Assembly: GCA_902768605.1 (NCBI GenBank)
Contig: CACXLY010000009.1
Span: forward strand, 10,305-74,304
DNA length: 64,000 bases
Reading direction: 5' to 3'
DNA from: an uncultured Bacteroidales bacterium
GTDB lineage: Bacteria > Bacteroidota > Bacteroidia > Bacteroidales > Bacteroidaceae
Position 1 is the first letter of the stretch, and each line of letters starts with the position of its first letter. This document shows positions 11,713-48,629 of the stretch, one piece after another. Below the pieces are notes generated by a model that was given only the letters and a program-made list of their open reading frames with translations, searched no databases and was not told where the DNA came from. Position numbers and translations under genes: made by a program.

Positions 11713-11714
11713 CA

Positions 11715-14432: not shown

Positions 14433-14448
14433 TCAAGGTTAGTTAATC

Positions 14449-15945: not shown

Positions 15946-15962
15946 CGGTGCCTCTTTTCAGC

Positions 15963-18073: not shown

Positions 18074-18115
18074 GCTTTCTTCTCCTCTTTATGACGTTAT
18101 ATCGTTCTTTCGTTA

Positions 18116-19234: not shown

Positions 19235-19253
19235 GTACATCAATTAATATATG

Positions 19254-20474: not shown

Positions 20475-20512
20475 TGGTCATTATTTTATAGGTACTATAT
20501 ATATTATAGTTA

Positions 20513-21847: not shown

Positions 21848-21916
21848 CTATTCATTTACCATTTAATCATTTACCATTTACCATTTCCTCCCCTTGCGGT
21901 GGAGTTGGAGGTGGCT

Positions 21917-23182
21917 TTATCTTATCTTAAGTGTTACGATGGCAAGGGCTGCCATGATGATTGTGACAATCCAGAAGCGTACTGTTATTTTGGACTCGAG
22001 CCAGCAGCCTTTGGGCCAGTTGATGAGCACCTTGAAGTTGGCTGGCAGCTGACCTGGGGCGACGCGGAACGTGTCGTGGAGCGGGGCGCGCTTTATGACG
22101 CGCCACTTCAGTCCCCGGCGATTGCCCATCCGCGCATAGTTGGTCTGCAGGATGACACTCAGGCTCTCCATGAAGAAGACGAAGCAGAGCAGGGGCAGCA
22201 GCAGCTCTTTGTGGATGATGATGGCTGTGACGCCGATGATGCCGCCGATGGCGAGGCTGCCGGTGTCGCCCATGAAGACCTGCGCCGGATATGCGTTGTA
22301 CCAGAGGAAGCCGATGAGTGCGCCCACGAAGGCGCAGATGAAGATGACGAGTTCCTCCGAGCCGGGGATGTACATGATGTTGAGATAGGCGGCCATGTGG
22401 ATATGGCTGCTGACGTAGGCCAGTATGCCGAGGGCGATGCACATGATGGCAGCATTGCCCGCGCACAAACCGTCCATTCCATCGTTCAAATTAGAGCCGT
22501 TGCTCACTGCCATGACGATGAATGTGGTGACCAACACGAAGAATATCCACCCTGCTGCAGACTTGTGTTTGCCCAGCCACGAGAAGATGTCGGCATAGTT
22601 GAGGTTATTGTTCTTGACGAACGGGATGGTGGTGATGGTGCTCTTCACCATTTCGCTGCGATGCGTGACGACTTGCTCGGTGCCCTGCCTCTGGTCCTCG
22701 ATGTTCTCGCAAATGACGGCATCGGGGCTCATCCACAGCGTCAGTCCGACCACCAAGCCGAGGAGTGCCTGCCCCAGAAGTTTCCAGATGGGGCGCAATC
22801 CGTCTTTCGTCACCTTCATCTTGATGTAGTCGTCGGCAAAGCCGAGTGCACCGAGCCACACGGTCGTGAAGAGCATGAGGAGCATGTAAATGTTGCGAAG
22901 GCGTCCCAAAAGCAGACACGGGACGAGGGTTGCGACAATGATGATGATGCCGCCCATGGTTGGCACCCCCTTCTTCTCCACGCCGAAGGGGTCGATGCTG
23001 GCGTCGCGCTGGGCCTCGCTGACGTGGTGCTTGCGCATCCACTTCACGAAGTACTGGCCGAACCACATGGAGATGAGCAGGCTCAGGACGAGCGTGAGGA
23101 CTGCGCGGAAGGAGATGTAGTGCCAGACGTTGGCGCCGGAGACGCCAAATTCGCCTAAATATCTGAACAGGTAGTATAGCAT
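21917..23182 (-). CDS. mraY: Phospho-MurNAc-pentapeptide translocase MraY
   Basis: 421 residues with about ten membrane segments. Catalytic motifs: GFADDYIKM with the following KVTKDGLRPIWK, the NLNDGMDGLCAGNA loop, and the C-terminal MGNRRGLKWRVIKRAPLHDTF histidine motif. It makes lipid I from UDP-MurNAc-pentapeptide and undecaprenyl phosphate. It is longer than the approximately 360-residue proteobacterial enzyme because of a periplasmic insertion after the fifth segment (VICENIEDQRQGTEQVVTHRSE region, shown here in part), as is usual in Bacteroidales. Confidence 0.95.
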   Translation of the reverse strand: MLYYLFRYLGEFGVSGANVWHYISFRAVLTLVLSLLISMWFGQYFVKWMRKHHVSEAQRDASIDPFGVEKKGVPTMGGIIIIVATLVPCLLLGRLRNIYMLLMLFTTVWLGALGFADDYIKMKVTKDGLRPIWKLLGQALLGLVVGLTLWMSPDAVICENIEDQRQGTEQVVTHRSEMVKSTITTIPFVKNNNLNYADIFSWLGKHKSAAGWIFFVLVTTFIVMAVSNGSNLNDGMDGLCAGNAAIMCIALGILAYVSSHIHMAAYLNIMYIPGSEELVIFICAFVGALIGFLWYNAYPAQVFMGDTGSLAIGGIIGVTAIIIHKELLLPLLCFVFFMESLSVILQTNYARMGNRRGLKWRVIKRAPLHDTFRVAPGQLPANFKVLINWPKGCWLESKITVRFWIVTIIMAALAIVTLKIR

Positions 23183-23235
23183 TCGTTGACGTTTACTTTA
23201 TGTTGAGTTTTCTTGTTCTTTTTCATGTCTTCTGA

Positions 23236-23345
23236 AACCCCTCGTGAGGCATCGGCCGCTCCTTGCTATGGCGTCGGCCGCTCCTTGCTGTGGCATCGGC
23301 CGCTCCTTGCTGTGGCGTTGGGCTTTCCTTGCTGTAGCGTTTTCA
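23236..23345. repeat. 22-bp TTGCTGTGG-family array between murE and mraY
   Basis: Cap CCCTCGTGAGGC at about 23239, then TTGCTATGG/TTGCTGTGG/TTGCTGTAG cores at 23263, 23285, 23307 and 23329, exactly 22 bp apart. It fills the gap inside the dcw operon and touches the murE stop codon, so the last unit overlaps the end of murE. Confidence 0.85.
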
Positions 23346-24794
23346 AAGGCCAAATGCGTCGCGTATCACCTCGTGGTCGTCGAAGTGGTGCTTCACGCCC
23401 TTGACGATCTGGTAGTCTTCGTGTCCCTTGCCGGCCACGAGCACTACGTCGCCGGGCTGCGCCATGGTGCAGGCGGTGCGGATTGCTTCGCGGCGGTCCA
23501 CGATGCTGAGTACGCTGCGGCGCTGACTGGCATCGAGTCCGGCCAGCATATCGTCGATGATGGCCTGCGGGTCTTCATTGCGGGGGTTGTCGCTCGTGAT
23601 GATGACGCGGTCGCTGTGCCTGACGGCCTCCTGCGCCATCAGGGGGCGCTTGCCCTTGTCGCGGTTGCCGCCCGCGCCGCATACCGTCCAGCACTGTCCC
23701 TTGCCCTGCAGCACCTCGTTGATGGTCGTGAGGACGTTGACGAGGGCATCGGGCGTGTGGGCGTAATCGACGATGGCGGTGACGCCCTCCCGCGAGCGGA
23801 TGGCCTCGAAGCGACCGTTGACGGGCTTCTGCGCGCTGAGGAGCACGAGGGCCTGCTGCGGCTCGACGCCCAGCATGACGGCCGTGCCATAGACGGCCAG
23901 CAGGTTGCTCACGTTGAAGCGCCCCACGAACTGCACGCTGACGTCGCGGCCGTCAATCTCCAGGTCCATGCCTTCGAAGCTCTCCTCCATGATGCGCGCC
24001 TTGAAGTCGGCAGCCGAGTGGAGCGAGTAGGTCTTGACCGTCGCCTTGCAGTTCTGCACCATGACCATGCCGTTGCGGTCGTCGGCGTTGATGATGGCGA
24101 AGGCATCGGCGGGCAGGGCGTCGAAGAAGCCCTTTTTCGCGTCGCGGTAGGCCTCGAACGTGCCGTGGTAGTCCAGGTGGTCGCGCGTCAGGTTGGTGAA
24201 GATGCCGCCCGTGAAGGTGAGGCCTCCGATGCGCTTCTGGCTGACGCTGTGCGAGCTGACCTCCATGAAGGCGTATGCACAGCCCTCGTCGGCCATGCGG
24301 CCCAGCAGGCGGTTCAGCGTGATGGGGTCGGGCGTCGTCACCTCCGTGGGGATGGGCTCGCCGTCGATATAGTTGCAGACCGTGCTGCAGAGGCCGCACT
24401 TGTAGCCAAGCTGACGGAATATGTTGTAGAGCACGGTGGCGATGGTGGTCTTGCCATTCGTGCCGGTGACGCCGACGAGATGCATGCGCTCGCTCGGGTT
24501 GCCGAAGAAGTGCGTGGCAAGCGTGCCGACCACGTCCTCCGTGCTGGGATAGACCAGATAGGTGACGTCGTCCCTGGTCACCTCAGGCAACTGCTCGCAG
24601 ACCACGACGCCTGCGCCCAGCTCGATCGCCTTGTCGATGAAGGTATGTCCATCCACTTGCGTGCCGCGCATCGCCACGAAGGCCGCGCCCTGCTGTATGC
24701 GGCGGCTGTCGATTTCGATGCCGGTCACCTCCCTGTCCGTGCTGCCCACGATGCGCTGTGGTGCGCAGCCATGTATGAGTTGTTCAAGTTTCAT
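23343..24794 (-). CDS. murE: UDP-MurNAc-tripeptide synthetase MurE (meso-DAP type)
   Basis: 483 residues. ATP loop [17 protein letters not shown] (about 107-123), [12 protein letters not shown] substrate loop, [28 protein letters not shown] with the carbamylated Lys, DYAHTPDAL, and [10 protein letters not shown]. The DNPR motif marks enzymes that add meso-diaminopimelate, agreeing with Gram-negative A1-gamma peptidoglycan. The gene is separated from ftsI by 65 bp and from mraY by a repeat-filled gap. Confidence 0.95.
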
Positions 24795-24859
24795 TGCTAT
24801 CGTATTTCAGTATTATCCGAGTCTTCATAGTGTTCAGAGTGTCCGGGACAGCCCATTGC

Positions 24860-26974
24860 TCACAGTTTCCTGGGCGAGGCGGTCAGGTTGATCTGCTTTC
24901 CCTTGACGGCCACCGTGCCCGGGGCGATGTCCTGCTTTGTTATCTCGCCGACGCCGTTGATGCGGACGCGCAGACCGCGCTTCTGCAGGGTGAAGACCGC
25001 GTCCTTCACGCCCATGCCGACCACATCGGGTACCCTGTCGTCCGCTATCGTGTCGGCATCGGCCAGGCTAAGCTGTTTGCCCGAGATGCCCATGCCCTCG
25101 ACGATGGCCTCGGCTCTGCGCTTGTTGCCCTTCGTCACCTCAGGCACGAAGACGCTGTTCGTGTCGGCAGCCAACGCGGCACTCTGCATCGAGTCCCTCG
25201 ACATGATAAACTGCGATATCTCGCTGAAGACGGGTCCGCACTGCCCACCGCCGGAAGCCGGCAGGCCTTTCTTTCGGATGCAGACGATGCAGCTGTACTT
25301 CGGGTCGTCGCTTGGGAAGTAGCCGCAGAAGCTGACCATATACTTGCGTCCGGCATACGAGCCGTTCTCGCTGAACTGTGCCGTTCCGGTCTTGCCGCTC
25401 ACCTTGAAGAGCTTGCCGCCATTGCCGGCCTTCCTGCCCAGGCCGCCGCTCACGACGTGCTCCAGGCAGTATTGGATGTCGCGGAGCGTCGAGGGCTTGC
25501 ATATCCTCTCCTTGATGACCTCCGTCGGGAACTCACGTATCACCATGCCGTCCTTCAGCTCAGCCTTCACGAAGCGAGGCTTCACCATCTTGCCGCCGTT
25601 GGCAATGGCGTTGTAGAACGTCAGCGTGCTGATGGGCGGCAGCATCGTGACGTAGCCGATGCTCATCCATGGCAGGTCGGGCTTGCTCCAGTAGCGTTTC
25701 TTGTCCTTCGGGTGGGGCACGTAGGGCTCACCCTTGCCCACGAAGGGCAGATTGAGCGGGATGCCGACGCCCTCGCGGTGGAGACCATCGACGTAGGCCG
25801 ACGGATTGTCGCTGTAAGCACGGTCGATGATGGTGCTCACGCCGATGTTGCTGCTCTGCCCAAGTATGTCCTCCACCTTCAGCGTGCCATAGCCGCCGCG
25901 ATGCCAGTTGTGGTCCTTCATGTTCCTGCCATGCATCTGGACGATGCCCGGCGCACAGTTCACGCTGGTATTGAGGTCGATCTTGCCGTCCTCAAGCGCC
26001 ACCATGATGCTCGCCGTCTTAAACGTCGAGCCCGGCTCCCAGAGGTCGCTCACGGCGTTATTCTTCATCTCGTAGTACTCCCCGTCTTCGCCGCGCGTCA
26101 GGTTGACGATGGCCTTCACGTCGCCTGTCTTCACCTCCATCACGACAACGACACCCACCTCGCCGTTCACCAGCTCTTCTTTGAGCTTGCTACGCAATGT
26201 GCGGTCCGCGAAATCCTGTATGTTGATGTCGATCGTGGTGAGGAGATCGTGCCCGTTCTCTGCTTGCGTGTCGATGATTGGCACCAGGCGATTGCGCATC
26301 ACAATGAAATGCTTCGAGCCCGGCTTGCCTCGCAGGATGCTGTCGAAGCTCAATTCGAGGCCGCACTTAGGCTTGCTGCTCGTGTCGTTATACAGTTCGC
26401 CGATGGTGCGGCTCGCCAAGCCGCCGTACGGCTTAAGGCGGAGAAGCATCTCGTCGGCGTGGAAGCCGCTGCGATACATGCTCTCGCGAAGGAAGGGCAA
26501 TTCTTTGCAAGCACGATACTGTACGTAAGTGGCCAGCTTCGGATAGATGCGCCACGAGTACTTGCCACGCTGTTTGCCCTGCAGCAGACGCTGTCGGAAC
26601 CACTCGGCCTCGCGGTCGGGGAAGATGCGTGCAAGGCCTCGGGAGATGCTGTCCAGGTCGACGCGGAAGGCGGAGTCGCGGAAAGCGCGGGTCTTTGCCT
26701 CGATATTCGAGTCCGGATCGTGCACGGCGAAATCCATGTAGAGTGCGTATTTGGGCACCGTTCCCGAGAGTACCTGGCGGTCGCACGACAGGATGTTGCC
26801 GCGGTTGGCCGGTATTTGGGCCGTCCGGCTGTTGAGTCCCACCGCCTTCCAGTACTCGTTCTCGGGCGGCAGCATTGTATAGAGAGCCTTGCCCAGGATG
26901 TATAGTCCTGCGAGACACATCAAGACGAAGATGACGAAGTAGCGTCTGGGAGCTTTATCTTTGCCAGTTTGCAT
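24860..26974 (-). CDS. ftsI: Septal penicillin-binding protein FtsI (PBP3) with PASTA domain
   Basis: 704 residues: membrane segment at about 12-32, dimerisation domain (RTAQIPANRGNILSCD), transpeptidase with nucleophile motif GSTFKTAS (SxxK), QSSNIGVS (SxN) and SGKTGTAQF (KTG), then a C-terminal PASTA domain of about 65 residues (VPDVVGMGVKDAVFTLQKRG). It cross-links septal peptidoglycan next to FtsW. A PASTA domain on FtsI is normal in Bacteroidetes. The gene lies 54 bp after ftsL. Confidence 0.95.
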   Translation of the reverse strand: MQTGKDKAPRRYFVIFVLMCLAGLYILGKALYTMLPPENEYWKAVGLNSRTAQIPANRGNILSCDRQVLSGTVPKYALYMDFAVHDPDSNIEAKTRAFRDSAFRVDLDSISRGLARIFPDREAEWFRQRLLQGKQRGKYSWRIYPKLATYVQYRACKELPFLRESMYRSGFHADEMLLRLKPYGGLASRTIGELYNDTSSKPKCGLELSFDSILRGKPGSKHFIVMRNRLVPIIDTQAENGHDLLTTIDINIQDFADRTLRSKLKEELVNGEVGVVVVMEVKTGDVKAIVNLTRGEDGEYYEMKNNAVSDLWEPGSTFKTASIMVALEDGKIDLNTSVNCAPGIVQMHGRNMKDHNWHRGGYGTLKVEDILGQSSNIGVSTIIDRAYSDNPSAYVDGLHREGVGIPLNLPFVGKGEPYVPHPKDKKRYWSKPDLPWMSIGYVTMLPPISTLTFYNAIANGGKMVKPRFVKAELKDGMVIREFPTEVIKERICKPSTLRDIQYCLEHVVSGGLGRKAGNGGKLFKVSGKTGTAQFSENGSYAGRKYMVSFCGYFPSDDPKYSCIVCIRKKGLPASGGGQCGPVFSEISQFIMSRDSMQSAALAADTNSVFVPEVTKGNKRRAEAIVEGMGISGKQLSLADADTIADDRVPDVVGMGVKDAVFTLQKRGLRVRINGVGEITKQDIAPGTVAVKGKQINLTASPRKL

Positions 26975-27028
26975 AATCTCTTTTCTCTAATCCCTAATCT
27001 CTTTTCCTTGTTTCTGAATCCTCAATCC

Positions 27029-27556
27029 TTACTCTTGGGAATTGATGACATACGGCGCAACTTTGCTTGGTGTAAGCGTGCTGTCGCCCTGTTCGCGCAG
27101 TTTCTGTTCGAGCTGGCTCTGCCGGCAGAGTTGTGTGAGTTCGCTGACGCGGGTGATGCTGCGGTAACGCCAGTCCTTGAGCTCCGTCTCGAGTTCCGTC
27201 TCCTTCATTATCTCGACTTGTGCCTGATAACCATTCGTGATGTAGAGGAAGATGCCGGCGAGGACGAGGATTAACATTTTCCATTGGCTCAGAAACCAAC
27301 GGGGGGCTGCATCGAGCACCTGGCGGACGCTGTCGAGCGTCAACTCATCGACCTCGTCGTCGTCGCTGACGAGCGAACGCATCAGCTTCTCCTTGTCGCT
27401 GACTTGCTCGGGAGCGTCCTGCGCCTCTGCTGCCTCTGGGTTTTCCGATGGCTCGGAGGGTTCCGGGCTTTCAGCAGGCTCAGGGGATTCGGAGGGGTCG
27501 GAGGGGTCGTGCAACTCCTGCAACTCGTCGATGCTATCTAATTCAATCTCTGCCAT
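27029..27556 (-). CDS. FtsL-like cell division protein with long acidic N-terminus
   Basis: 175 residues. Residues 1-75 are very acidic with Ser/Pro/Glu repeats (SESPEPAESPEPSEPSENPE). A membrane segment lies at about 92-109 (KMLILVLAGIFLYITNG), followed by a charged coiled-coil-like helix to the end. This topology and its place between rsmH and ftsI identify the Bacteroidetes FtsL-like protein, which would form a complex with FtsQ and activate FtsWI. The acidic cytoplasmic tail is longer than in classical FtsL (about 120 residues). Eight bp separate it from rsmH. Confidence 0.8.
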   Translation of the reverse strand: MAEIELDSIDELQELHDPSDPSESPEPAESPEPSEPSENPEAAEAQDAPEQVSDKEKLMRSLVSDDDEVDELTLDSVRQVLDAAPRWFLSQWKMLILVLAGIFLYITNGYQAQVEIMKETELETELKDWRYRSITRVSELTQLCRQSQLEQKLREQGDSTLTPSKVAPYVINSQE

Positions 27557-27564
27557 ATCGTGTC

Positions 27565-28494
27565 TTATAATTCTCTCTTTCTTGCGATGCGGAGCTTTGC
27601 CGAACGACTGCGCGGGTTGCTCTTCTGCTCGTCGTCGCTGGGGATTATGATGCTCCTGTTGACGGCCTCGAGTGGCGCTCCCGTCCGCCCGTAGATGTCT
27701 GTCTCGACTTTTCCTTCGACGTTGCCTGCCTTGACGATATTCTTCACCATGCGGTCCTCGAGGGAATGGTAGGTGAGAATGCTGAGGCGGCCTCCCGGCC
27801 TGAGCAGCTCCGTCGCTGCGCTCAGCATCTGTCTGAGGGCGCCCATCTCGGCGTTGACCTCTATGCGCAGTGCCTGGAACACTCGCGCCAGGTCTTTCTT
27901 CTCGCGGTCATAGCCCATGAGTGGCCTGAGCACCTCGACAAGCTGTGTGGTCGTCTCGATGGGCTGTTGCTGGCGGGCCTTGACGATGGCTGACGCGATG
28001 CGGCGGCTGTTCTTCAGTTCGCCGTAGAGGTAGAGGATGTCTGCCAATTGCTGCTCGCTGTAATCTGCTACGATGCGCCCGGCCGTGAGGTTGGCCTGCC
28101 GGTTCATACGCATGTCGAGAGGTGCGTCGAAGCGGAAGCTGAAGCCTCGCCTCTCCTCGTCGAGGTGATGGCTACTGACACCGAGGTCGGCCAGGATGCC
28201 GTCCACCTGCTCATGCCCGTAGTAGAGCATCCAGTTCTTGAGGAATCGGAAGTTGCTGCGGATGAAGGTGAAGCCAGCCTCGCCCTCCATGGCGCTGGCG
28301 TTGCTGGCGGCATCCTCGTCCTGGTCGAAGCTGTAGAGGTGGCCAGTGCCTGCCAGGCGCCGCAGTATCTCCCTGCTATGGCCGCCGCCGCCGAACGTGA
28401 GGTCCACATAGATGCCTCCCGGCTTGATGTCGAGCCCATCGACTGCCTCCTTGAGCAGCACCGGCACATGATATTCCTCCTCACGCGTGTACAT
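27565..28494 (-). CDS. rsmH: 16S rRNA (cytosine1402-N4)-methyltransferase RsmH
   Basis: 309 residues. SAM-binding loop DLTFGGGGHSREIL (about 33-46), the N-terminal YHVPVLLKEAVDGL start, ILADLGVSSHHLDEERRGFSFRFDAPLDMRM and LTYHSLEDRMVKN are all diagnostic for RsmH/MraW. It methylates C1402 of 16S rRNA in the decoding centre. Second gene of the dcw cluster, after mraZ. Confidence 0.95.
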   Translation of the reverse strand: MYTREEEYHVPVLLKEAVDGLDIKPGGIYVDLTFGGGGHSREILRRLAGTGHLYSFDQDEDAASNASAMEGEAGFTFIRSNFRFLKNWMLYYGHEQVDGILADLGVSSHHLDEERRGFSFRFDAPLDMRMNRQANLTAGRIVADYSEQQLADILYLYGELKNSRRIASAIVKARQQQPIETTTQLVEVLRPLMGYDREKKDLARVFQALRIEVNAEMGALRQMLSAATELLRPGGRLSILTYHSLEDRMVKNIVKAGNVEGKVETDIYGRTGAPLEAVNRSIIIPSDDEQKSNPRSRSAKLRIARKREL

Positions 28495-40143: not shown

Positions 40144-40184
40144 TCATTGCTGTCCGGTAAAAAGTTCTTCCCAAAGTCCGCACC
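40144..40184. repeat. Solo element end joined to a 19-bp iteron-like repeat
   Basis: CATTGCTGTCCGGTAAAAAG (about 40144-40164) matches the outer end of the palindromic element, without the rest. It runs straight into the first copy of the 19-bp repeat (40166-40184, minus orientation), whose last base is also the last base of the nucleoside hydrolase stop codon. Confidence 0.7.
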
Positions 40185-41239
40185 TAAGGCTTTGCCGTCA
40201 CCATCGTCACGAAATAGCTGAGGATGGCGCGGGCCTGCTCCGGCGTGATGAAGAGGTAGAAGTGGCGGCCGGCCGGGTCCTGCGTGAAGTGGGTGTAGCC
40301 CTCGTCGGTCACCGCGATGCGCCCGGCAGGCGAGATGTTGAAGAACTGCCGCGGGTCGACGGCATAGAGCACAGCCGTGAGGTCCCACGTCGGCCGGTCC
40401 TCTATCTTCTCGAGGTAAGCCTTGTAGGAATCGACGATGGGATGATGCCTCGTCCACGTGAAGTCGTGCTCGATGCTCTGCGCCGGATAGCGCACCTGCA
40501 GGCCCAGCTCGAAGGGCGATATGACGATGGGCGTGGGCCACTCGGCGAAGACGCGCTGGCATGCGGCGACATCGTTCACCACATTGTACTCGGCGTACTT
40601 CGGGTTCTCAATGTGCCCGGCCATCGCGACCAGCTTTTTCACCTTGCGCGCTATCAGCTCTCTGCCTAAGAGGGGCGAGAACTCGTCGGCCTTCGTGTCG
40701 AGGAGCAGCGCCAGGTTCGTGCTGAAGCCGACCGAGACGACGGTGACCGAGGCATCCTCCGCCTTGGCAAGCAGCTTGCGGTAGAGCTTGACGGCAGGCA
40801 GCAGGCGACCGTAGTCCTTGATGCTGCGCTTGTAGAGCGGCCGGCCCCGCTCGTCCTGCTTCTCGCAGACCACCTGCGTGTAGTTCGCCCCCGCCACGAT
40901 GCTCTTGCCAGAACGCGGGCTCAGGCCGATGGGGATGCGACGCAACCCGTACCACGTGTTCAGCAGATCGATGTACCGAGGCGGGAAGTCGCCCTCCTTG
41001 TTCAGCATGACGGCCATCAGGTTGATGCGCTCCTGCCGGTGGTACTTGTAGAGCATGTCGATGGCCAGCGCATCGTCCACATCGTTGCCCATGTCGGTTT
41101 CGAAGATGAGATTCATGCGCGTGTTGGTGCTGACGGGCGCATTGTCATCGCGGAGCTCCGCCCGCATGCCGGCCGAACCCTTTGCCCGCATGCCACTCGC
41201 CGTGCACAGCACAGCCAAAAGTAAAAGAAGTCGCTTCAT
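40184..41239 (-). CDS. Secreted nucleoside hydrolase family protein
   Basis: 351 residues. Signal peptide (LLLLLAVLCTASGMRA), then IFETDMGNDVDDALAIDML, which is the calcium-binding DxD-type loop of inosine-uridine preferring nucleoside hydrolases with Glu replacing the first Asp. VSVGFSTNLALLLD, KKLVAMAGH and EYNVVNDVAACQRVF agree with the fold, including the Asn-Asp pair near the active site. It would cleave the N-glycosidic bond of nucleosides in the periplasm. The Asp-to-Glu change is shared by a subgroup of Bacteroidetes proteins, so activity on classic nucleosides is not certain. Single gene with a strong promoter at 41268-41298. Confidence 0.8.
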   Translation of the reverse strand: MKRLLLLLAVLCTASGMRAKGSAGMRAELRDDNAPVSTNTRMNLIFETDMGNDVDDALAIDMLYKYHRQERINLMAVMLNKEGDFPPRYIDLLNTWYGLRRIPIGLSPRSGKSIVAGANYTQVVCEKQDERGRPLYKRSIKDYGRLLPAVKLYRKLLAKAEDASVTVVSVGFSTNLALLLDTKADEFSPLLGRELIARKVKKLVAMAGHIENPKYAEYNVVNDVAACQRVFAEWPTPIVISPFELGLQVRYPAQSIEHDFTWTRHHPIVDSYKAYLEKIEDRPTWDLTAVLYAVDPRQFFNISPAGRIAVTDEGYTHFTQDPAGRHFYLFITPEQARAILSYFVTMVTAKP

Positions 41240-41267
41240 GGTTTCGCTTTTTATTCAATTCGTCCTG

Positions 41268-41298
41268 CAAAGTTACGAAAAAGCAAGCAAAAGACAAA
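41268..41298 (-). promoter_or_regulatory. Promoter of nucleoside hydrolase gene
   Basis: Minus strand: TTTG (41298-41295), exactly 19 bp, TAACTTTG (41275-41268). Leader of about 25 nt. Confidence 0.8.
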
Positions 41299-41334
41299 AT
41301 AATTTGGGACGTTTCGTGCTCTCTCACAAAACAA

Positions 41335-41488
41335 CACGTTAGTAAATTGCAAACGATGCGTTAGTAATTCGTCATCGACACGTTAGTAATTCGTCAACGA
41401 CACGTTAGTAAATTGCCAACGACGCGTTAGTAAATTGCCAACGACACGTTAGTAAATTGTCAACAACACGTTAGTAAATTGCAAACGA
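41335..41488. repeat. Tandem array of seven 22-bp units (CACGTTAGTAAATTG)
   Basis: Seven head-to-tail units start at 41335, 41357, 41379, 41401, 41423, 41445 and 41467, each exactly 22 bp. The common part is YRCGTTAGTAAWTYG followed by YMAMSA-type positions; units 2 and 3 differ most. The exact length, order and A/T-rich core are those of replication iterons. It lies between the nucleoside hydrolase promoter and the exonuclease stop. Confidence 0.9.
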
Positions 41489-41531
41489 CGATAATTGCAC
41501 CGAGTGAATCAATTCAAACCTGCACGGCACG

Positions 41532-42023
41532 TCACAGTATCTCCCTCGCTATCCAGGCGCAGGCTTCGGCGTCGGCGAGCGCGTGGTGATGGTTCTGCAA
41601 GCAGAAGCCGCAGGCCTCGGCCACCGTCTGCAGCTGGTGATTCGGCAGCCAGGGAAACCTCCGCCGCGCTGCCCAAAGCGTGTCGAAAAACCTGTAGTCG
41701 GGGTAGTCCATCTGATAGACGCGGAAGACTGACTTCAGGCACCTCTCGTCGAATGCCTTGTTGTGAGCCACCAGCGGCAGGCCCTCAATCAGAGGCTCCA
41801 CCTGCGCCCACACCTCGGGAAACAGCGGAGCGTCGTCCGTGTCGGCATGACCCAGTCCGTGAACCCGCTGGCACCAGTAGTTGTAATAGTTTGGCTCGGG
41901 CTGGATGAGCGAGTAGAACGAATCCACCATCTCGCCATCCCTGACAATGACAACACCAACGGAGCAGACCGAACTGCACTCGCTGTTGGCCGTCTCGAAA
42001 TCTATCGCTGCAAAGTCCTTCAT
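41532..42023 (-). CDS. DnaQ-like 3'-5' exonuclease
   Basis: 163 residues. ExoI AIDFETANSE (Asp8, Glu10), ExoII LVAHNKAFDERCL, and ExoIII NHHHALADAEACA with the catalytic His and Asp are all present, so it is an active DEDDh exonuclease of the DNA polymerase III epsilon type, with no other domain. It is shorter than chromosomal DnaQ proteins and is like stand-alone epsilon homologues in Bacteroidetes. A -7 box TAACTTTG lies at 42100-42093 on the minus strand; the -33 element is weak. It is flanked by 22-bp arrays and 19-bp repeats, which suggests a link to the replication region, but the role is not shown. Confidence 0.85.
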   Translation of the reverse strand: MKDFAAIDFETANSECSSVCSVGVVIVRDGEMVDSFYSLIQPEPNYYNYWCQRVHGLGHADTDDAPLFPEVWAQVEPLIEGLPLVAHNKAFDERCLKSVFRVYQMDYPDYRFFDTLWAARRRFPWLPNHQLQTVAEACGFCLQNHHHALADAEACAWIAREIL

Positions 42024-42239
42024 CTTCTGCCCTCTCCTATTTATATTTTAGCGGCGTCTCCTTACTTCCTTGTTTCGAACCTGAATTTTCTGCAAAGTTA
42101 CGAAAAAGGAGCACAACTTCGAAGCAAAAGGCGGAGAAAATTGCATCGCCCCCATGTTTTTGGAGGTAAAGACCGCATTCGGATGACCGCTCCGAGTAGC
42201 GAGGCCCTGCAGTTGCTATTTGTTTCTTCCTCTCACAAT

Positions 42240-42344
42240 TCTTCCCAAAGTCCGCACCTTGACGTGAAAAGTCCAGCCTTCGCACACTGAAAAGAGATAT
42301 TGCAAAGCTGTGTCCGCCTCCACCATGTGCGGACTTTGGGAAGA
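42240..42344. repeat. Two 19-bp iteron-like repeats
   Basis: Copies of GGTGCGGACTTTGGGAAGA: 42240-42258 (minus orientation) and 42326-42344 (plus orientation, first base T). They form an inverted pair with about 67 bp between them. Confidence 0.85.
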
Positions 42345-42354
42345 TTTTGCGCAG

Positions 42355-42735
42355 AACCCATAAGCCCCCAAAACGCCCATTACCCCCATTACCCCATAAT
42401 GCCCATTAGCCCCCAAAAGCCCATTAGCCCCATTAACCCACAATGCCCATTAGCCCCCAAAAGCCCATTAACCCCATTACCCCATAATGCCCATTAGCCT
42501 CACATCGCCCATTACCCCCATTACCCCATAATGCCCATTAGCCCCCAAAAGCCCATTAACCCCATTACCCCATAATGCCCATTAGCCCCAAAACTCCCAT
42601 TAGCCCCATTAACCCACAATGCCCATTAGCCCCCAAAAGCCCATTAACCCCCAAAAGCCCATTAACTCCATTACCCCATAATGCCCATTTACCCCATTAA
42701 CCCCATTTAGCCCATTTACCCCATTAGCCCCATAA
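42355..42735. repeat. C-rich CCCATTA telomere-like low-complexity repeat
   Basis: About 380 bp of blocks CCCATTAGCCCC, CCCATTAACCCC, CCCCATAATG and CCCCCAAAAG. The plus strand has very few G residues. The minus strand reads GGGGTTAATGGGGCTTTTGG-like and could form G-quadruplexes. Longest of the three related arrays in the window and it lies inside the candidate origin region. Confidence 0.9.
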
Positions 42736-42756
42736 ATCTCCCGACCATTGGGGAAT

Positions 42757-42946
42757 AGTTCCCAAAGTCCGCACCTTCTCTTTTTTGCTTTCGTGGTTTT
42801 ATATACTTCTTGGTGCGAACTTTGAGAACACTCTTTGGGTCGAGGTGCGGACTTTGGGAAGAAATCGGCTGCGAAGTGCGGACTTTGGGAAGATTTTTCG
42901 TAGGATTTATTGTTTCCTCTGCATCCTGGTGCGGACTTTAGGAACA
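42757..42946. repeat. Cluster of five 19-bp iteron-like repeats
   Basis: 42757-42775 (minus), then four in plus orientation: 42812-42830 (GGTGCGAACTTTGAGAACA), 42844-42862 and 42875-42893 (GGTGCGGACTTTGGGAAGA type) and 42928-42946 (GGTGCGGACTTTAGGAACA). Densest group of this repeat outside the Rep gene. Confidence 0.9.
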
Positions 42947-43012
42947 AACGGTGGTAGTTTTTCGGCTTGAAGTGGGCAGTCTGCTCTGCTGCCTGATGCT
43001 TTGCTCCCTATT

Positions 43013-43122
43013 AAAGTCAGGCTTTCTCGAAAAAGAAGTCAAGCTTTCACGAAGTTAAAGTCAGGCTTTCTCGAAAAAGAAGTCAAGCTTTCCCAAAGTT
43101 GAAGTCAGGTTTTCCCAAAGTT
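43013..43122. repeat. Tandem array of five 22-bp units ending in a 19-bp repeat
   Basis: Units start at 43013, 43035, 43057, 43079 and 43101, each exactly 22 bp, with common sequence RAAGTCARGCTTTC and a variable end. The final unit ends CCCAAAGTT and runs into CGCACC, so that 43110-43128 is also a minus-orientation copy of the 19-bp repeat. The two repeat types therefore seem to be related or to have been built from each other. Confidence 0.9.
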
Positions 43123-43171
43123 CGCACCTTCGTGGGTTGCTTTGGGCTATTTGGTGCGAATATCAGGAACA
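43110..43171. repeat. Two 19-bp iteron-like repeats
   Basis: 43110-43128 (minus orientation, GGTGCGAACTTTGGGAAAA) and 43153-43171 (plus, GGTGCGAATATCAGGAACA), face to face with 24 bp between. Confidence 0.85.
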
Positions 43172-43679
43172 AATTTATGGAAAAAGATGCGAAAAAGGTG
43201 CACCCTTGTGATGAAAAAAACTGAAAAATTAGAAAAAGCGTTACAAATCTGAAGAATATTTTCGGCGCTTCCTGTTGAATTTTGAAGTCATTGGTTTTCA
43301 AGCAGTCAACTTGTGCTGTCAAATTGGCAAACGCAACGTGTTGAATCCGCCTTTCCTACACGTAGCATTTGCCTTTCCCACGTGTGGGAATTGACTTCGC
43401 CACACGTGGAATCAAATAACTATCGATTTTAAGGAAATATGGTGATGCTAAAGCAGAGCAAAACCTTAGGAAAAAACTTTACAACTTTTTTATGACCTTC
43501 CTGAAACGACCTCATTTTGAGGCCAAAAACTCCTCAATTTGAGCGTTTTTACACTCAATATTGGAAAAAACCATCTGCCCGCTCCGATTGGGCGAAACGA
43601 GCAACGGCAAGGCAGCGCCCGAAGAGCCGAACGCTCCCCTACCCTACTCGCGATGTGAAGCTGGAAGCGGTTCCCTCGC
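43172..43679. other. Gene-free stretch with ACGTG repeats
   Basis: About 500 bp before the small ParA-linked gene (which reads from the other side). ACGTG/ACGTA cores at 43336, 43360, 43380 and 43404 have spacings of 24, 20 and 24 bp and include the palindrome CCCACGTGTGGG. No gene or RNA was recognised. Confidence 0.55.
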
Positions 43680-44051
43680 TCAAACCCACTGATAGACGCT
43701 GTCCTCGTACTGCTCGATGATGCGCATCGACTCTGCATCGAGGCCCTGGCCCTCCTTGTAGTGCTGCTTCAGGAATTGATGGAGAGCGGCGCGCACGACG
43801 TTCTGCTTCTCCAGTTTCTGACGGAAAGCGATGTAGTCCAGTGCGTTGCGGTCGTCTTCCGCAGTGAAAAACGTGAAGCCGCCCACCTTCTGGATGGTGC
43901 AAACGCGACGCAAAGGCTTCGGTGCCGGCGTCTCCTGCACGATCTTGTTGCGCACGGCATCGTTGCTGGCCAAAGGCTTCGGAGCCACGTAGTTCTGCGT
44001 AGCTTCGGCCGCTACCCTGCTGATATTCAGCGCCTTCTTCTTGATTGCCAT
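43680..44051 (-). CDS. Small ParA-linked protein, candidate centromere-binding partner
   Basis: 123 residues, not recognised as a named family. The N-terminus is basic and Ala/Pro-rich (MAIKKKALNISRVAAEATQN). The C-terminal half has a strand RRVCTIQKVGGFTFFTAEDD followed by two helices with KQNVVRAALHQFLKQHYKEG, which is compatible with a ribbon-helix-helix or similar small DNA-binding fold. It lies 76 bp downstream of parA on the same strand, the usual place for a ParB-type or RHH partner. By position it would bind a centromere and stimulate the ParA ATPase. DUF3408-like proteins next to ParA in conjugative elements are an alternative. Function is inferred from context only. Confidence 0.55.
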   Translation of the reverse strand: MAIKKKALNISRVAAEATQNYVAPKPLASNDAVRNKIVQETPAPKPLRRVCTIQKVGGFTFFTAEDDRNALDYIAFRQKLEKQNVVRAALHQFLKQHYKEGQGLDAESMRIIEQYEDSVYQWV

Positions 44052-44121
44052 AATCTTGTCCTCCTCTGTTCTATGGTATTTCGATGTGTTTTCTGGTGAA
44101 TTCTCTCATATTCAAACACCC

Positions 44122-44161
44122 AAGTACTCAGGTTTCTGAATACTCAGATATTTGAGTACTC
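44122..44161. repeat. AGTACTCAG repeats at the end of parA
   Basis: AAGTACTCAGG (44122-44132), GAATACTCAGA (44138-44148) and inverted TTTGAGTACTC (44151-44161) straddle the parA stop codon. Small inverted and direct repeats beside a par gene pair are candidates for a centromere (parS), though they are few. A similar 9-bp block is repeated in the linker of the GH43 gene at 50.8 kb. Confidence 0.55.
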
Positions 44162-45039
44162 CGCTCTTTGATGAAGTTGTCGTAGGCTGCGTTTGCTATC
44201 TGGCCCCACTTGGCAGGCGTCCAGGTCTTCGGACGCGCCTTGCGGCCTATCATGAACTCTGCTACGCGCATATAGTCGTCGGCCACTGGGCTGTTGCTGG
44301 CATACTCGAAGAGCGACATCTCGTAAGCAACTGATTCCGTGCAACGTACGCTCTCGCGAACACTCACGGGAAACAACGGAGCCTTAACCTCGTCCTCATT
44401 GCTGTAGTACTCCTTTACCTCACGACTGATGCTGCGATTCTTGTTCCAGCGGACCAAAAGGTAACCCATGATACGGACCGGGCAGCGGAGTTGGGTGTGC
44501 ACCTTATTTATATAGTCGAGCAGACGCGGAAGGCCCTGCAGACTATAGATGCCGGCTTCGGTCGGGACTATCACGAAATCGCTGGCTACCAAAGCATTAG
44601 TATTCATCAGCGTCTCGCCGCCCGGGGCGCAGTCAATGAAGATGTAGTCGTACATGTCGCGAATCCTGAGTCCACTGTCGGGGTCAATCAGGTCGAGGAA
44701 ATCAGCCAGACGACGTTCTCGATTGTACATCAACTGCAGTTCCGCGTTGATATTGCTCATGCTGTGACTGCCGGGAACGTAGTCCAGACCGTCATAGCGC
44801 GTGTAGATCGGCAGCGGGAGCGACTCGCCCGGAACGCTGTCGTGCAGCCACTCGTAGATAGTGCTATCCGCCTCTAAATGAACGGTTTTGTCGACGGTAT
44901 CAGTCAGGTTGCACTGCGGGTCAGTATCGACGAGCAGTACCTTCTTGCCGAGCAGCCACAGGGCAAAGCCCAGGTTGACGCACGTCGTTGTTTTCGCGCA
45001 GCCACCCTTATCGTGTAAAAGAGAAATAACTTGTGACAT
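44128..45039 (-). CDS. parA: ParA-type partition ATPase
   Basis: 303 residues. Deviant Walker A KGGCAKTTT at 11-19 (signature Lys11 and Lys16; Cys-Ala instead of the usual Val-Gly), Walker A' VLLVDTDPQCNLT near 34-46, and Walker B YDYIFIDCAPGGETLMN near 130. There is no N-terminal helix-turn-helix domain, so it is of the small type Ib or soj-like architecture. It would move plasmid- or chromosome-bound partner complexes over the nucleoid. It is followed by the small partner gene and preceded by a promoter at 45139-45170 and an A/T-rich repeat region. Divergent to the rep gene, separated by 2.1 kb of repeats. Confidence 0.9.
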   Translation of the reverse strand: MSQVISLLHDKGGCAKTTTCVNLGFALWLLGKKVLLVDTDPQCNLTDTVDKTVHLEADSTIYEWLHDSVPGESLPLPIYTRYDGLDYVPGSHSMSNINAELQLMYNRERRLADFLDLIDPDSGLRIRDMYDYIFIDCAPGGETLMNTNALVASDFVIVPTEAGIYSLQGLPRLLDYINKVHTQLRCPVRIMGYLLVRWNKNRSISREVKEYYSNEDEVKAPLFPVSVRESVRCTESVAYEMSLFEYASNSPVADDYMRVAEFMIGRKARPKTWTPAKWGQIANAAYDNFIKERSTQISEYSET

Positions 45040-45138
45040 AATCTATACGTAATTACTTTGTCGTTACCTTTTCTTCCTAAATATTTGAATATCCCAGGCA
45101 GAGGGAATAACCATCTTGCTACGCTGGAAATTCAGTTG

Positions 45139-45170
45139 CAAAGGTAAAGCTTTTCATCGACAACTGCAAG
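45139..45170 (-). promoter_or_regulatory. parA promoter
   Basis: Minus strand: CTTG (45170-45167), 20 bp, TACCTTTG (45146-45139). Start near 45133, giving a leader of about 93 nt. Confidence 0.7.
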
Positions 45171-45470
45171 AAAATACCTAAATATTTTCAAATATCTGCA
45201 TACTTTTATACTTGGATAGGTCGAGATATCTGAATATAAACGCGGATTATACAGGAAAAATAGCGAGTTATATAGTATTGTATTTGGATATTTAAGGATA
45301 TGCAAATAGTTAGGTATTGTGAAGTATTCGAAGACTTGAATAGTGAAGAATGCGGATACGTGAGTATGGGAGTGTGCAGATATCTGAATATAAATGAACA
45401 CAGATACAAAGAAATTTGAGTATGCAAATATTTGGATATACGAATATAACGGGTAGGAAGAAATGGGGTA
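45171..45470. repeat. A/T-rich region with repeated ATATCTGAATATAAA motifs
   Basis: Very A/T-rich for this genome. GATATCTGAATATAAA occurs near 45226 and 45380, and variants AAATATTTGGATAT, AAATATCTGCATAC and AAATATTTGAATAT occur in between and near 45080. Such DNA could be an unwinding element or a centromere. Repeat boundaries are loose. Confidence 0.6.
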
Positions 45471-45585
45471 GGGAGAGAGGATGAAAGAATAAAACGATGA
45501 GAGGGGAGAGGGAAAACGATGAGAGGGGAGTTAAAAGAAGATGAAAAGGGAGAGAAAAGAAGATGAAAGGGGAGAGAAAAGCAAA
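45471..45585. repeat. Purine-rich GAGAGGGGAG low-complexity stretch
   Basis: About 110 bp of purine-only blocks such as AGATGAAAGGGGAGAGAAAA on the plus strand. It continues the strand asymmetry seen at 42.4 kb, with the opposite base bias. Confidence 0.6.
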
Positions 45586-45670
45586 TGTTCTGCAAATTCG
45601 CACCAATAGTACATGAAGACTGCACCAGATGTTCTGCAGATTCGCACCTTATGTTCACGGAGTTCGCACC
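45586..45670. repeat. Three phased 19-bp iteron-like repeats
   Basis: Minus-orientation copies at 45586-45604 (GGTGCGAATTTGCAGAACA), 45630-45648 (GGTGCGAATCTGCAGAACA) and 45652-45670 (GGTGCGAACTCCGTGAACA). Spacings are 44 and 22 bp, that is multiples of 22. Confidence 0.85.
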
Positions 45671-45844
45671 AGTTGGGGATTAAAGCAATAAGTGACAGAG
45701 AGTTAGATCAAAGGATAACTATTATAAGATATACAATATTATATAATAGGAGAATTCTTTTAGAATATCGTTTATCACAGTATCGAATTATATAGTTTAT
45801 CGAAATGCGTAACTGCTTGTGTGTTATTGGAGTAGGGGATAGCT

Positions 45845-45929
45845 GGTGCGGAGTTTAGGAAGAGTAGGTGAGGGGTTCGTGAAGTATTCGTGAAGAGGAA
45901 GGGGGCATTTGGTGCGGAGTTTGGGAAGA
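45845..45929. repeat. Two phased 19-bp iteron-like repeats
   Basis: Plus-orientation copies GGTGCGGAGTTTAGGAAGA (45845-45863) and GGTGCGGAGTTTGGGAAGA (45911-45929), 66 bp apart (three times 22). Confidence 0.85.
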
Positions 45930-46041
45930 ATTGGCGTGAGGTGGCACATTATGTTTAGATGAAATGTGACTACGGATATATTATCTCAAAAAAAAATTGC
46001 TTTAGGGGTTTACAAAACGAGGGGTGGCGAGTATATATATA

Positions 46042-46280
46042 ATTATTGCTGTCCGGGGAAAAGCACCGAAGGTGCGAAAGACCACAGACGGGGGTGTTAA
46101 CCCCCGGGACAGGATAACCTAACAATAGTAAGCCCTGGAAGGGCGACAGAATATGTAACTTGTTTAATAATAACTTGCTTATGGCTCTGTCGTCCTTTCA
46201 GGACTTTCTCTGTCGTCGCAACATTACCGGGGGTTGTCACCCCCGTCTGTGGTCTTTCGTCTCTTCGAGACACCAATAAT
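46042..46280. mobile_element. Palindromic dispersed element, copy B (short form)
   Basis: About 240 bp with terminal inverted repeats ATTATTGCTGTCC and GACACCAATAAT, flanked by TATATA-rich DNA that could be a target duplication. It contains GACCACAGACGGGGGTG with its distant complement and palindrome GGGGGTGTTAACCCCCG. It lacks the roughly 90-bp arm seen in copies A, C and D. Confidence 0.65.
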
Positions 46281-46326
46281 ATATAATAGAAGCAGGGTAG
46301 GGGAGGGAGCCAGGGCGATACAGTTT

Positions 46327-46590
46327 CCTTGCTGAGGGAAGGGCAGAACCTTGCAGAAGGAAGTGGAGTTGTCTGCTGTAGCAGGGACGTGAAGTTGCTT
46401 TGATAGAGACGTTTACTTGCTATGGCGGGGTTGTTTCCTTGCAGAGGGAAGTGGAGTTGCTTGCAGAGGGAAGTGGAGTTGCTTGCTGTGGCAGGGGCGT
46501 TTCCTTGCTGTGGCGTGGATGATTTCTTGCGATGGGAGGGTTTTCAAGTTGCTGTGGCGGGGACATTCTGTCGCGGAGAAGTGAGACTTT
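46327..46590. repeat. Twelve-unit 22-bp TTGC array upstream of rep
   Basis: Degenerate units of exactly 22 bp start at 46327, 46349, 46371 and so on to 46569. Most begin with CCTTGC, GCTTGC or TCTTGC followed by TGTGGC, AGAGGGAAG or similar. It is the longest and most diverged member of the TTGCTGTGG family in this window and passes into the next array without a clear break. Confidence 0.8.
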
Positions 46591-46616
46591 TCGAGACAAA
46601 GGGGCGAAACATCCTT

Positions 46617-47089
46617 GTGCTGGCTGCATGAAGAGCGAGGTGTAAGACTTTGGGCAGACTAACGTGCAAGAATCAGGGTCATGCTGGTGAAGAATCCTGT
46701 CCAAATGCTGGTGACGATGGACGAGAACAGAGATGTGACGGCCTGCATGAAGACTTATGTACGAGCGGAATGTAACATCGATGTAGGAGAGAACGGTCAC
46801 ATCTGCGTACGAAACACGCTCACATCTACGTACGAAACAGCAGCCGTTTCCTCTTGCGAGAGGTGATGAATACCTTCGTGACAGGTATCGATAACAAGTC
46901 TGTGCGGAGGACATGATTCTTCATGTGCGAGGGACGAAGCATATCGACGTGACGGAATCGGAGATGAGTCTTGTGCGGAGACGGAATGCATTGCCGTGCG
47001 ACGACGAGATGCATCACGATGCGATGGCTGGTGACAGCTAAGTGCGAAACTCATCTAACAGCTAAGTGCGAATGTTTGGAACACTTTAA
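46617..47089. repeat. Twenty-unit phased GTGCG/GTGAC/GTACG array before rep
   Basis: The pentamer starts at 46617, 46640, 46664, 46687, 46711, 46735, 46759, 46783, 46807, 46830, 46854, 46878, 46902, 46925, 46949, 46973, 46996, 47019, 47042 and 47066. All spacings are 23 or 24 bp. Sequences are mainly GTGCG, GTGAC or GTACG, with the rest of each unit variable. The last unit contains the 19-bp repeat (47065-47083, AGTGCGAATGTTTGGAACA). The last two units share CAGCTAAGTGCGAA. It ends 43 bp before the rep start and may also be the operator of rep. Confidence 0.85.
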
Positions 47090-47132
47090 AACATAATTCT
47101 AATATTTTTTACTGAAAAATTTGCATAATACG

Positions 47133-48629
47133 ATGGAAAACTTTAATTTTGCAGCTGAAAACTTATTTGAAGACGAAGAAATGGCCAAAAAGAAAGGACC
47201 TGCTATAGTCAGCACGACGAACGAGCTGGTGCAGACGATAGCGAACAATCGCGACCTGGATTTCATTCTCAATCCGGTGAGCTACACACAGATACGCGGC
47301 AACTTCTCGTTGGTGCAGACCAACCTGATGATAGCCATCATCTCGCAGTTGCAGAACCGCATCCGCGAGCAGCTGAGCATCGGCGAGAAGTCGTTCCTCT
47401 TCAAGCCAGAGGACTTGACGGGCAACCTGCTCAACTTCGAGATACCGCTGAAGGAGCTTGGCATCAGCCCGAAGAAGTACGGCGAGCTGGAGGCGGCTTG
47501 CGAGGCGTTGCTCCACGTCGATATGTCCTACAAGCGTTGGGACGAGTACGAGCGTCAGGAGTATAATGTGAAGCAGAACATCTTCCACAAAATCGAGTTC
47601 CCGACGGCCGAATTGAATGCAGCCGGCGAGAAGGTGGCCTACAAGGGCGGGCAGCGACGGAAGGGCGTCATCAAAATCTCGATGGTGGACGAGAGTGCCC
47701 GCGAGATTCTGAACCTTCGCAAGGGCTACACGCGCCACCTGAAAGGCATCACGCAGCTCTGCCGCAGCCCTCGCACGCCGCGACTCTACATCTACCTGAG
47801 CGCCTGGCGGAAGTACGGCTCCTGCAAGGTGAACTACATCGACCTGAAGGAGTTCTTCGGCGTGCTCACTTTCAGCAAGGACCACAAGCGCATCGTCGAG
47901 AACCGTTACGTCAAATACGGCGCCTTCCATCGCGACGTGCTCGACCCCGTGCTCAAGGAGATGAAGAAGCTGTCGGACGAAGGCAAGGTGGAGTTCTGCT
48001 TCGAGTACGAGCCCATCTACCCCCACGGCGTCAGTCGTGGCGACCCGGACAGCATCCGCTTCACCATCATCGAGGGCAAGATGGGTCAGGCGCAGCTGCA
48101 CGAGAGTTTCCTGGGCAAGATGCGCGCCAAGCTCATCACGAAGTACGCCCTGCAGCCCAGCGAGTGGGCCAGGCTCGAGGACCTCATCTACGACGGGCTC
48201 GACCTTAAGCCCGAGCTGGACCGCATCGACAAGCTCGTCGAGGACAAGCAGCCCGACAACGTCCACGCCTACGTCACCGAGGTGCTCTACCGCTGGCTCC
48301 TGGAGCAGCAAAAGCCCAAGCAGCCGGAGTTCACGGAAGCCGTCGAGGTGAAGGACGAGGCGCTGGAGCGTCCGTTCGTGCAGCCCGTCTATCTCGAGAA
48401 ATGGAACCTCTGGATGGAGAAGGCCAGGGAGCGCCTGGGCGAGCAGTTCTACAACCAGTACATGACCTGCTGCAGCCTCTGGGCGGTGCGCGACAAGAAC
48501 GTCCTGGTGTCCGTCCCCAACAAGTTCGTCTCCGAACAATGGGAAGAACATCTCAGCGAAATCGTCAGCTACTTCTACAGCGCATTCGGTGCCGACAAGA
48601 CGCTGACGTACGTCTTCCAGGACGTTTAA
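47133..48629 (+). CDS. Rep_3-type replication initiator with DnaA domain I-like C-terminus
   Basis: 498 residues from the ATG at 47133. Residues about 35-300 have the tandem winged-helix pattern of Rep_3/RepB initiators (LVQTNLMIAIISQLQNRI, EIPLKELGISPKKYGELEAA, RKGYTRHLKGITQLCRSPRT, TPRLYIYLSAWRKYG). A helical linker follows. Residues about 420-498 (WNLWMEKARERLGEQFYNQY, then KNVLVSVPNKFVSEQWEEHL and IVSYFYSAFG) match the N-terminal domain of DnaA, which in DnaA contacts DnaB and other partners. So the protein may bind iterons through the Rep part and recruit helicase through the DnaA-like part. It is longer than typical 300-350 residue plasmid Rep proteins. It is preceded by phased repeats and lies divergent from parA. 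Start region is A/T-rich with no clear TAnnTTTG box. Confidence 0.8.
   Translation: MENFNFAAENLFEDEEMAKKKGPAIVSTTNELVQTIANNRDLDFILNPVSYTQIRGNFSLVQTNLMIAIISQLQNRIREQLSIGEKSFLFKPEDLTGNLLNFEIPLKELGISPKKYGELEAACEALLHVDMSYKRWDEYERQEYNVKQNIFHKIEFPTAELNAAGEKVAYKGGQRRKGVIKISMVDESAREILNLRKGYTRHLKGITQLCRSPRTPRLYIYLSAWRKYGSCKVNYIDLKEFFGVLTFSKDHKRIVENRYVKYGAFHRDVLDPVLKEMKKLSDEGKVEFCFEYEPIYPHGVSRGDPDSIRFTIIEGKMGQAQLHESFLGKMRAKLITKYALQPSEWARLEDLIYDGLDLKPELDRIDKLVEDKQPDNVHAYVTEVLYRWLLEQQKPKQPEFTEAVEVKDEALERPFVQPVYLEKWNLWMEKARERLGEQFYNQYMTCCSLWAVRDKNVLVSVPNKFVSEQWEEHLSEIVSYFYSAFGADKTLTYVFQDV

Follow-up and report, generated by a model that had tools for sequence, protein, structure and literature searches.

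We analyzed a 64,000-nucleotide stretch of DNA (the window) from an uncultured Bacteroidales bacterium (contig CACXLY010000009.1, positions 10,305 to 74,304), in which a 19-bp repeat surrounds the genes of a ParA protein, its small partner and a replication initiator, Rep. These repeats are likely iterons of Rep, and two mirror-image sets of them likely make up the core of a large replicon's origin. The reading was built on features computed from the sequences: the sites, their specificity for the locus, their geometry, their covariation with Rep, a domain fusion in Rep, and a skew minimum in three of four contigs. We class the locus as an iteron origin of the Rep_3 type with an unusual trio of features, namely arrays in mirror image, a DnaA domain I in the initiator, and core cargo (Table 1).

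The 19-bp repeat is concentrated at the rep locus

A preliminary description of the window had listed 16 copies of the repeat, all between 40 and 47 kb. Using the consensus GGTGCGRAYTTTGGGAASA, 15 of them were recovered at ≤3 mismatches with coordinates and strands unchanged; 0.10 such copies were expected in the window and none of 100 shuffles attained 15. The remaining copy (45630, minus strand) has four mismatches and scored 17.3 bits with a weight matrix whose refinement drew on 261 sites in 17 close loci, the window included, and the full set was thereby borne out. The matrix also picked up a 17th, unlisted copy at 45867 (plus strand, 13.7 bits), 22 bp from 45845. Confinement to 40-47 kb proved near-complete, as the sole site beyond the locus among 18 scoring >10 bits was at 5904 (12.8 bits). 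The reported spacings of 22, 44 or 66 bp held for the copies at 45586-45652 and 45845-45911, but copies at 42.2-43.2 kb are irregularly spaced. By eye, very degenerate GTGCG copies recur about every 22 bp at 46880-47070.

The clustering expected of a genome-wide scan was found in the whole genomes of eight relatives, where 61 of 63 matches at ≤2 mismatches lay at the rep locus rather than evenly spread. The motif was present in seven of these genomes, the two off-locus matches were in G001:C18 and, ~16 kb from rep, in G004:C29, and a reversed-pattern control gave no match in any of the eight. At >10 bits, 17 of 19 matrix sites in contig G3 and 17 of 22 in contig G2 were at the locus; one off-locus site in G3 (114037) reached 20.6 bits.

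Mirror-image arrays flank an AT-rich spacer between parA and rep

Relatives of Rep were found at 28 loci in public genomes, with identities of 66-92%. All their titles name uncultured or metagenome-assembled Bacteroidaceae, Prevotellaceae or Bacteroidales, and 13 name a ruminant. The gene order small gene-parA-rep was kept in all 25 loci that extend far enough upstream (L009, L012 and L028 are too short).

Scanning of 26 loci (the window and 25 relatives) revealed the same core layout of minus-strand iterons, an AT-rich spacer and plus-strand iterons, mostly in 22-bp phase. When the spacer was delimited by the closest minus- and plus-strand sites of >8 bits that lie 120-300 bp from each other, it spanned 192-195 bp start to start with 68-79% AT in 17 of 17 close loci, and 164-208 bp with 71-83% AT in nine more distant ones. 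Within it, the blocks ATAAGATAttCAAT and AATATCGTTTATCA showed conservation of at least 70%. DnaA boxes were not enriched in the 17 loci, with eight boxes within one mismatch (in seven loci) against shuffle means summing to ~7.8, and the window's origin holds none within one mismatch. TTATNCACA was found exactly in only one of the 17 loci scanned. Interpretation of the spacer block AATATCGTTTATCA as a DnaA box was unsupported.

The conserved rep start in the window is ATG 47181, not 47133. It is preceded by the element TTG-N(17-22)-TAnnTTTG, which by its consensus we take to be a Bacteroidota-type promoter, in 27 of 27 loci (the window and 26 relatives; a count made without shuffle control). 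In 25 of the same 27 loci, again without shuffle control, the best iteron upstream of rep scored >10 bits; 24 of these sites lie 93-125 bp before the rep start and that of L014 at 170 bp, while the best sites of L017 and L021 reached 4.8 and 7.2 bits.

A further set of iterons, cluster A, together with an outlier at 40166, is situated beyond the small ParA-partner gene. Cluster A was present in 17 of 17 close loci, each time with a minus/plus pair whose starts are 41-43 bp apart. In nine loci with Rep identities of 66-80% no such cluster was seen at ≤3 mismatches, the single match lying ~1.4-1.7 kb before rep, in the parA region; because of these loci, cluster A is unlikely to be required for the core. 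Its copies score 25-31 bits, compared to 17-22 for the left core array and 28-29 for the main right sites. In iteron plasmids, inc loci control copy number through titration of the initiator or pairing with the origin, and by analogy cluster A (40166 and 42240-43171) would probably titrate Rep or pair with the core for copy control.

The repeats follow Rep and a second motif follows ParA

The preliminary description had assigned the repeats to either Rep or the ParA partner. We compared site counts in 26 loci (the window, seven of the 28 relatives and 18 more distant loci; stretches of 4-21 kb), counting iterons at >14 bits and a second motif around parA, AATATYTGNATAY, at ≤1 mismatch. Eight loci with Rep at ≥66% and ParA at ≥82% identity carried 7-16 iterons and 5-12 AATATYTGNATAY sites. 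Four loci with ParA at 81-83%, the partner at 60-68% and Rep at 35-36% carried no iterons and 7-15 AATATYTGNATAY sites, and the other 14, in which both proteins have diverged or ParA lies outside the stretch (L084), had no iterons (one in L137) and 0-3 AATATYTGNATAY sites. Thus, the iterons (GGTGCG sites) follow Rep and AATATYTGNATAY follows ParA, although the four key loci may trace to few events. The assignment to Rep therefore stood, the motif being kept in seven relatives with Rep at 66-91% and lost upon Rep divergence, often with other repeats in its place, and the assignment to the partner fell. From these sequence comparisons, the 19-bp repeats are best read as Rep iterons rather than Par sites.

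The second motif, as AATATCTGNATAY at ≤2 mismatches, has 11 sites in 1.4 kb versus five in the other 62.6 kb of the window, without control for composition. The small partner gave no Pfam or NCBIfam match; it is strand-helix-helix in a model, and a fold search gave a best E of 2.8, with ParD (ribbon-helix-helix) and Arc among 22 weak matches.

Several distant Reps have repeats of their own upstream, with 14-19 copies versus 4-13 in six shuffles each (L138, L139, L084, L085, L141, L142, L143). In some loci the order minus set, gap, plus set recurs with such other repeats, a few copies being misplaced, most clearly in L139, L084 and L018 (Rep 75%). De novo repeat finding, with six shuffles per locus, picked up the CTTGCTGTGG array in the window, returned AT-rich repeats first in L080, L132, L133, L134, L081, L135 and L027, and gave no clear excess in L136 and L137 and few copies in L140. 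L080 has GGTAAA...GAACAC sites (repeat families D2 and D9, plus direct reading), and in L081 22-bp repeats lie downstream, not upstream, of rep.

A Rep_3 winged helix and a DnaA domain I are fused in Rep

Protein searches used the Rep reading from ATG 47133, in which the conserved start is M17. Against Pfam, the window's Rep matched Rep3_N above the cut-off (E 1.5e-7) and DnaA_N below it (E 1e-3); Rep3_C was not reported for it and was above the cut-off in six of ten more distant relatives. TIGR00362 was matched by 23 of 23 Rep members at E ≤0.1 (best 1e-4), the match being limited to profile positions 1-71 of 437, and a further match (E 0.09) weakly supports the domain assignment. A fold search gave middling matches to RepE, pPS10 RepA and 6h24. 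The DnaA domain I, which in the chromosomal initiator is the part that recruits the helicase, is backed by both hidden Markov model and fold matches. Of the parts of DnaA, Rep thus has domain I and lacks recognizable AAA+ domain III and DNA-binding domain IV; no AAA+ domain was found in the window's Rep at E ≤0.001.

A plasmid search with the 88-aa module gave no match at E ≤1, a search of low sensitivity given how short and diverged the module is, and with three whole fused Reps as queries no record reached 80% query coverage. No Rep_3/DnaA-domain-I fusion or origin of this sort was found in the titles and abstract openings of open-licence PubMed Central (PMC) papers. Six lineage genomes also carry a second, shorter Rep (frames of 395-445 aa) with the same C-terminal DnaA-like module, preceded in L141, L142 and L143 by AAGGTTACYTTCTCCTCAA repeats; with its own repeats it probably marks a second replicon.

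The locus coincides with a skew minimum in three of four contigs

The global minimum of cumulative GC skew fell within the locus in three of the four contigs tested: G003:C1 (248 kb; minimum 109,835, locus 107.3-113.2 kb), G005:C47 (189 kb; 57,403, locus 55.0-59.5 kb) and G002:C20 (224 kb; 37,340, locus 32.6-37.4 kb). In the fourth, G159:C66 (119 kb), it lay at the end of the contig. Masking the locus moved the other three minima to positions 0.5, 1.0 and 9.5 kb outside it, respectively. Of 2000 block shuffles of these contigs, 21, 138 and 177 placed the minimum no more than 6 kb from the locus, and 0, 0 and 1 made it equally deep. The window has a local skew minimum at the locus and is lower at its left end.

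The window also carries division and cell wall genes, with MurD and MraY perhaps encoded at 20513 and 21917 (outside the protein scan), and its ftsZ/mur stretch is syntenic with the relatives' contigs G2 and G3. ftsZ was on the rep contig in three of six lineage genomes searched, the assemblies being fragmented elsewhere. tRNA-Glu(TTC) occurs once in 18 of 20 relatives' genomes, twice in one and not in one, and it shares its contig with rep in 6 of 19. dnaA and rep were on different contigs in 12 of 12 genomes, which proves nothing given fragmented assemblies; the longest lineage contig carrying the locus is 248 kb. Two hallmarks of chromids and second chromosomes, plasmid-type rep and par genes and core genes on the replicon, were found, and a second chromosome and a main chromosome whose origin has been replaced are both possible.

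In two other family members the ftsZ contig has DnaA boxes beside ychF. Around ychF in eight lineage genomes no DnaA-box cluster was found, the best being three boxes in 500 bp (ychF is at a contig end in G001 and G002). Box counts reached 11 in 500 bp in G064:C1, an 844-kb contig of another family member, and at most three in contigs G3 and G2 and the window. A strict tandem-box pattern matched one of 12 lineage genomes, in a 22-bp array, versus three matches in each of two other family members; it is a weak test because its backward control matched four of the 12 (five matches). A looser pattern missed the clusters of both positive controls and matched 22-bp arrays in G008, G210 and G244 and other repeats elsewhere. 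These scans located no main-chromosome oriC in the lineage.

Table 1. Features of the window considered here (strand. where none is given)
Feature	Position	Strand	Remarks
Left iteron array of origin core	45586..45670	-	45586, 45608 (degenerate), 45630, 45652; 22-bp phase
AT-rich spacer, candidate unwinding element	45671..45844	.	70% AT; 193 bp start to start; partly conserved blocks ATAAGATATtCAAT, AATATCGTTTATCA
Right iteron array of origin core	45845..45929	+	45845, 45867, 45889 (degenerate), 45911; 22-bp phase
Promoter-proximal iteron, probable autoregulatory site	47065..47083	+	20.5 bits
Bacteroidota-type promoter-like element TTG-N20-TAATTTTG	47121..47151	+	Consensus match
rep, initiator with Rep_3 winged helix and C-terminal DnaA domain I	47181..48629	+	Pfam, NCBIfam and fold matches
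C-terminal DnaA-domain-I-like module of Rep	48381..48623	+	Residues ~417-497 of the 47133 reading
Accessory iteron cluster A	42240..43171	.	9 copies, both orientations; terminal inverted pair 43110(-)/43153(+)
Outlying iteron of cluster A	40166..40184	-	30.9 bits
Small ParA partner, 123 aa, perhaps ribbon-helix-helix	43680..44051	-	Adjoins ParA in 25/25 loci
parA	44128..45039	-	Pfam AAA_31, E 1.2e-38
Second site family AATATYTGNATAY around parA, candidate partition sites	44140..45439	.	44140, 45080, 45173, 45191, 45225, 45280, 45298, 45372, 45379, 45420, 45427
Division and cell wall genes	13104..28494	-	FtsZ, FtsA, two Mur ligases, probably MurG, FtsW, penicillin-binding protein, MraW
tRNA-Glu(TTC)	12072..12144	-	

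Other repeats in the window and in relatives

Tandem arrays of 22-bp units lie at 8982-9136, 15860-15933, 23222-23340, 38316-38557 and 46393-46521 of the window, where two fall within the ftsZ-mur stretch, and also in G006:C45, G210, G244 and G008, mostly between predicted genes and with genome-specific units. Several of these share a GTGG core: CTTGCTGTGGC (window), CACGTGGATAGTTGACAAAGTT (G006) and CGTGTGGATTT...AAATCCT (others). Among tandem arrays of period 13-59, the period was 22 or 44 in 10 of 18 in the window, 11 of 11 in G3 and 6 of 12 in G2; a literature search on 22-bp arrays found no paper. Further 22/44-bp arrays of other sequence occur in the origin region at 41319-41484, 42987-43110 and 45475-45586; by eye, the last continues in register into the left iterons and the array at 42987-43110 has AACTTTGGGAA in common with the iteron. 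C-rich arrays of the CCCATTAGCCCC type, with 44-bp and 9-bp periods, are found at 42343-42740 and 11523-11728, the former with a strong strand asymmetry whose skew is opposite to that of the G-rich stretch at 45-47 kb. An inverted repeat (46067-46107 / 46227-46267) has 41-bp arms that are 88% complementary and 119 bp apart, and similar sequence lies near 38.3 kb and 40.15 kb. A BspA-type leucine-rich repeat protein is encoded at 31692-33941.

Discussion

We infer that the locus would work as follows. Rep would bind both arrays via its Rep_3 winged helices, and bound Rep would melt the AT-rich spacer between them. Through its own DnaA-domain-I module it may then recruit the replicative helicase, one per side, so that two forks would depart in opposite directions and firing would be bidirectional. 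Rep would further regulate its own gene from the iteron before the rep promoter.

Other readings were weighed against this one. That the motif is a general dispersed intergenic repeat without function is scarcely credible: other tandem repeats are indeed scattered over the window, but nearly all genome-wide matches in the eight relatives fall at one locus. We also rejected, as very improbable, centromere (parS-like) sites of the small ParA partner. The repeats do flank the parA operon, with cluster A immediately downstream of the partner gene; sites of this kind should, however, follow the Par proteins, and the 19-bp repeat does not, its loss in all four loci with conserved ParA and diverged Rep, where the other motif is kept, speaking against this reading.

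It is improbable, if somewhat less so, that the locus is a non-firing relic of an integrated plasmid and that the replicon starts elsewhere. In its favor, the Rep_3 gene of G064:C1, a contig examined through 20 sampled 20-kb pieces, the rep locus and the contig ends, is far from both the skew minimum and the DnaA-box cluster; on this ground we rejected the view that Rep_3 genes of the family mark an origin in every case. In that Rep, however, no DnaA_N was found, nor any window-type site around it, and against a relic stand the geometry conserved in all 17 close loci, the promoter in all 27 and the fit of the skew minimum in three of four contigs. A more serious possibility, which we nevertheless regard as unlikely, is that only part of the set is the origin and that cluster A regulates, for example, the exonuclease gene or is the residue of a 22-bp-unit duplication. 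The irregular spacing of cluster A, its absence from the nine loci mentioned and the unrelated 22-bp arrays common in the contigs tested favor this; yet its copies outscore the left core array and resemble the main right sites, and its minus/plus pair recurs in every close locus. A Rep-dependent origin with cluster A as an accessory part thus remains our preferred reading.

Rep_3 iteron plasmids such as F (oriS/RepE), R6K and pPS10 have a winged-helix Rep, tandem iterons of ~22 bp, an adjacent AT-rich stretch, a site before rep and extra iterons elsewhere, and the locus has all of these, including the Rep_3 winged helices and the tandem iterons near rep. It differs in that the spacer lies between mirror-image arrays, in the DnaA domain I of Rep, in the core division and cell-wall genes on the stretch and in the lack of DnaA-box enrichment; host DnaA boxes are usual, not universal, in Rep_3 iteron origins. 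With DnaA/oriC it shares the domain I module, an AT-rich stretch and a skew minimum, whereas no AAA+ domain was found in Rep, there is no DnaA-box cluster and the sites are iterons. Vibrio oriCII is similar in that the plasmid-like initiator RctB fires a chromosome from an iteron origin; RctB is a different initiator and is not known to carry DnaA domain I.

The second chromosome of the related Prevotella intermedia likewise combines a Rep_3 gene with housekeeping genes (PMC4755523). Its authors found neither iteron-like repeats nor plasmid-maintenance genes in the neighborhood of that gene, noted no clear skew transition at it and, in 2015, gave the origin as unknown (PMC4755523). The locus described here is distinguished from it by its repeats, its parA and the extra module in Rep.

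Rep_3 iteron origins are a known kind, and this variant was not found in the literature searched. Tentatively, and as something that may well turn out otherwise, we propose that in Bacteroidaceae of the ruminant gut a chromosome-like replicon, which may be the main chromosome that bears ftsZ with its DnaA origin replaced, initiates without DnaA, a plasmid-type initiator having captured DnaA domain I and sending out two forks from mirror-image iteron arrays. The comparison of loci alone told the Rep and Par site families apart, and the locus offers a concrete, testable origin in gut bacteria related to Prevotella intermedia. With a Rep that carries DnaA domain I and an origin without an excess of DnaA boxes, it constitutes a natural experiment on helicase loading. 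If true, this would mean that a plasmid-type replicon can adopt one domain of the host initiator while becoming chromosome-like.

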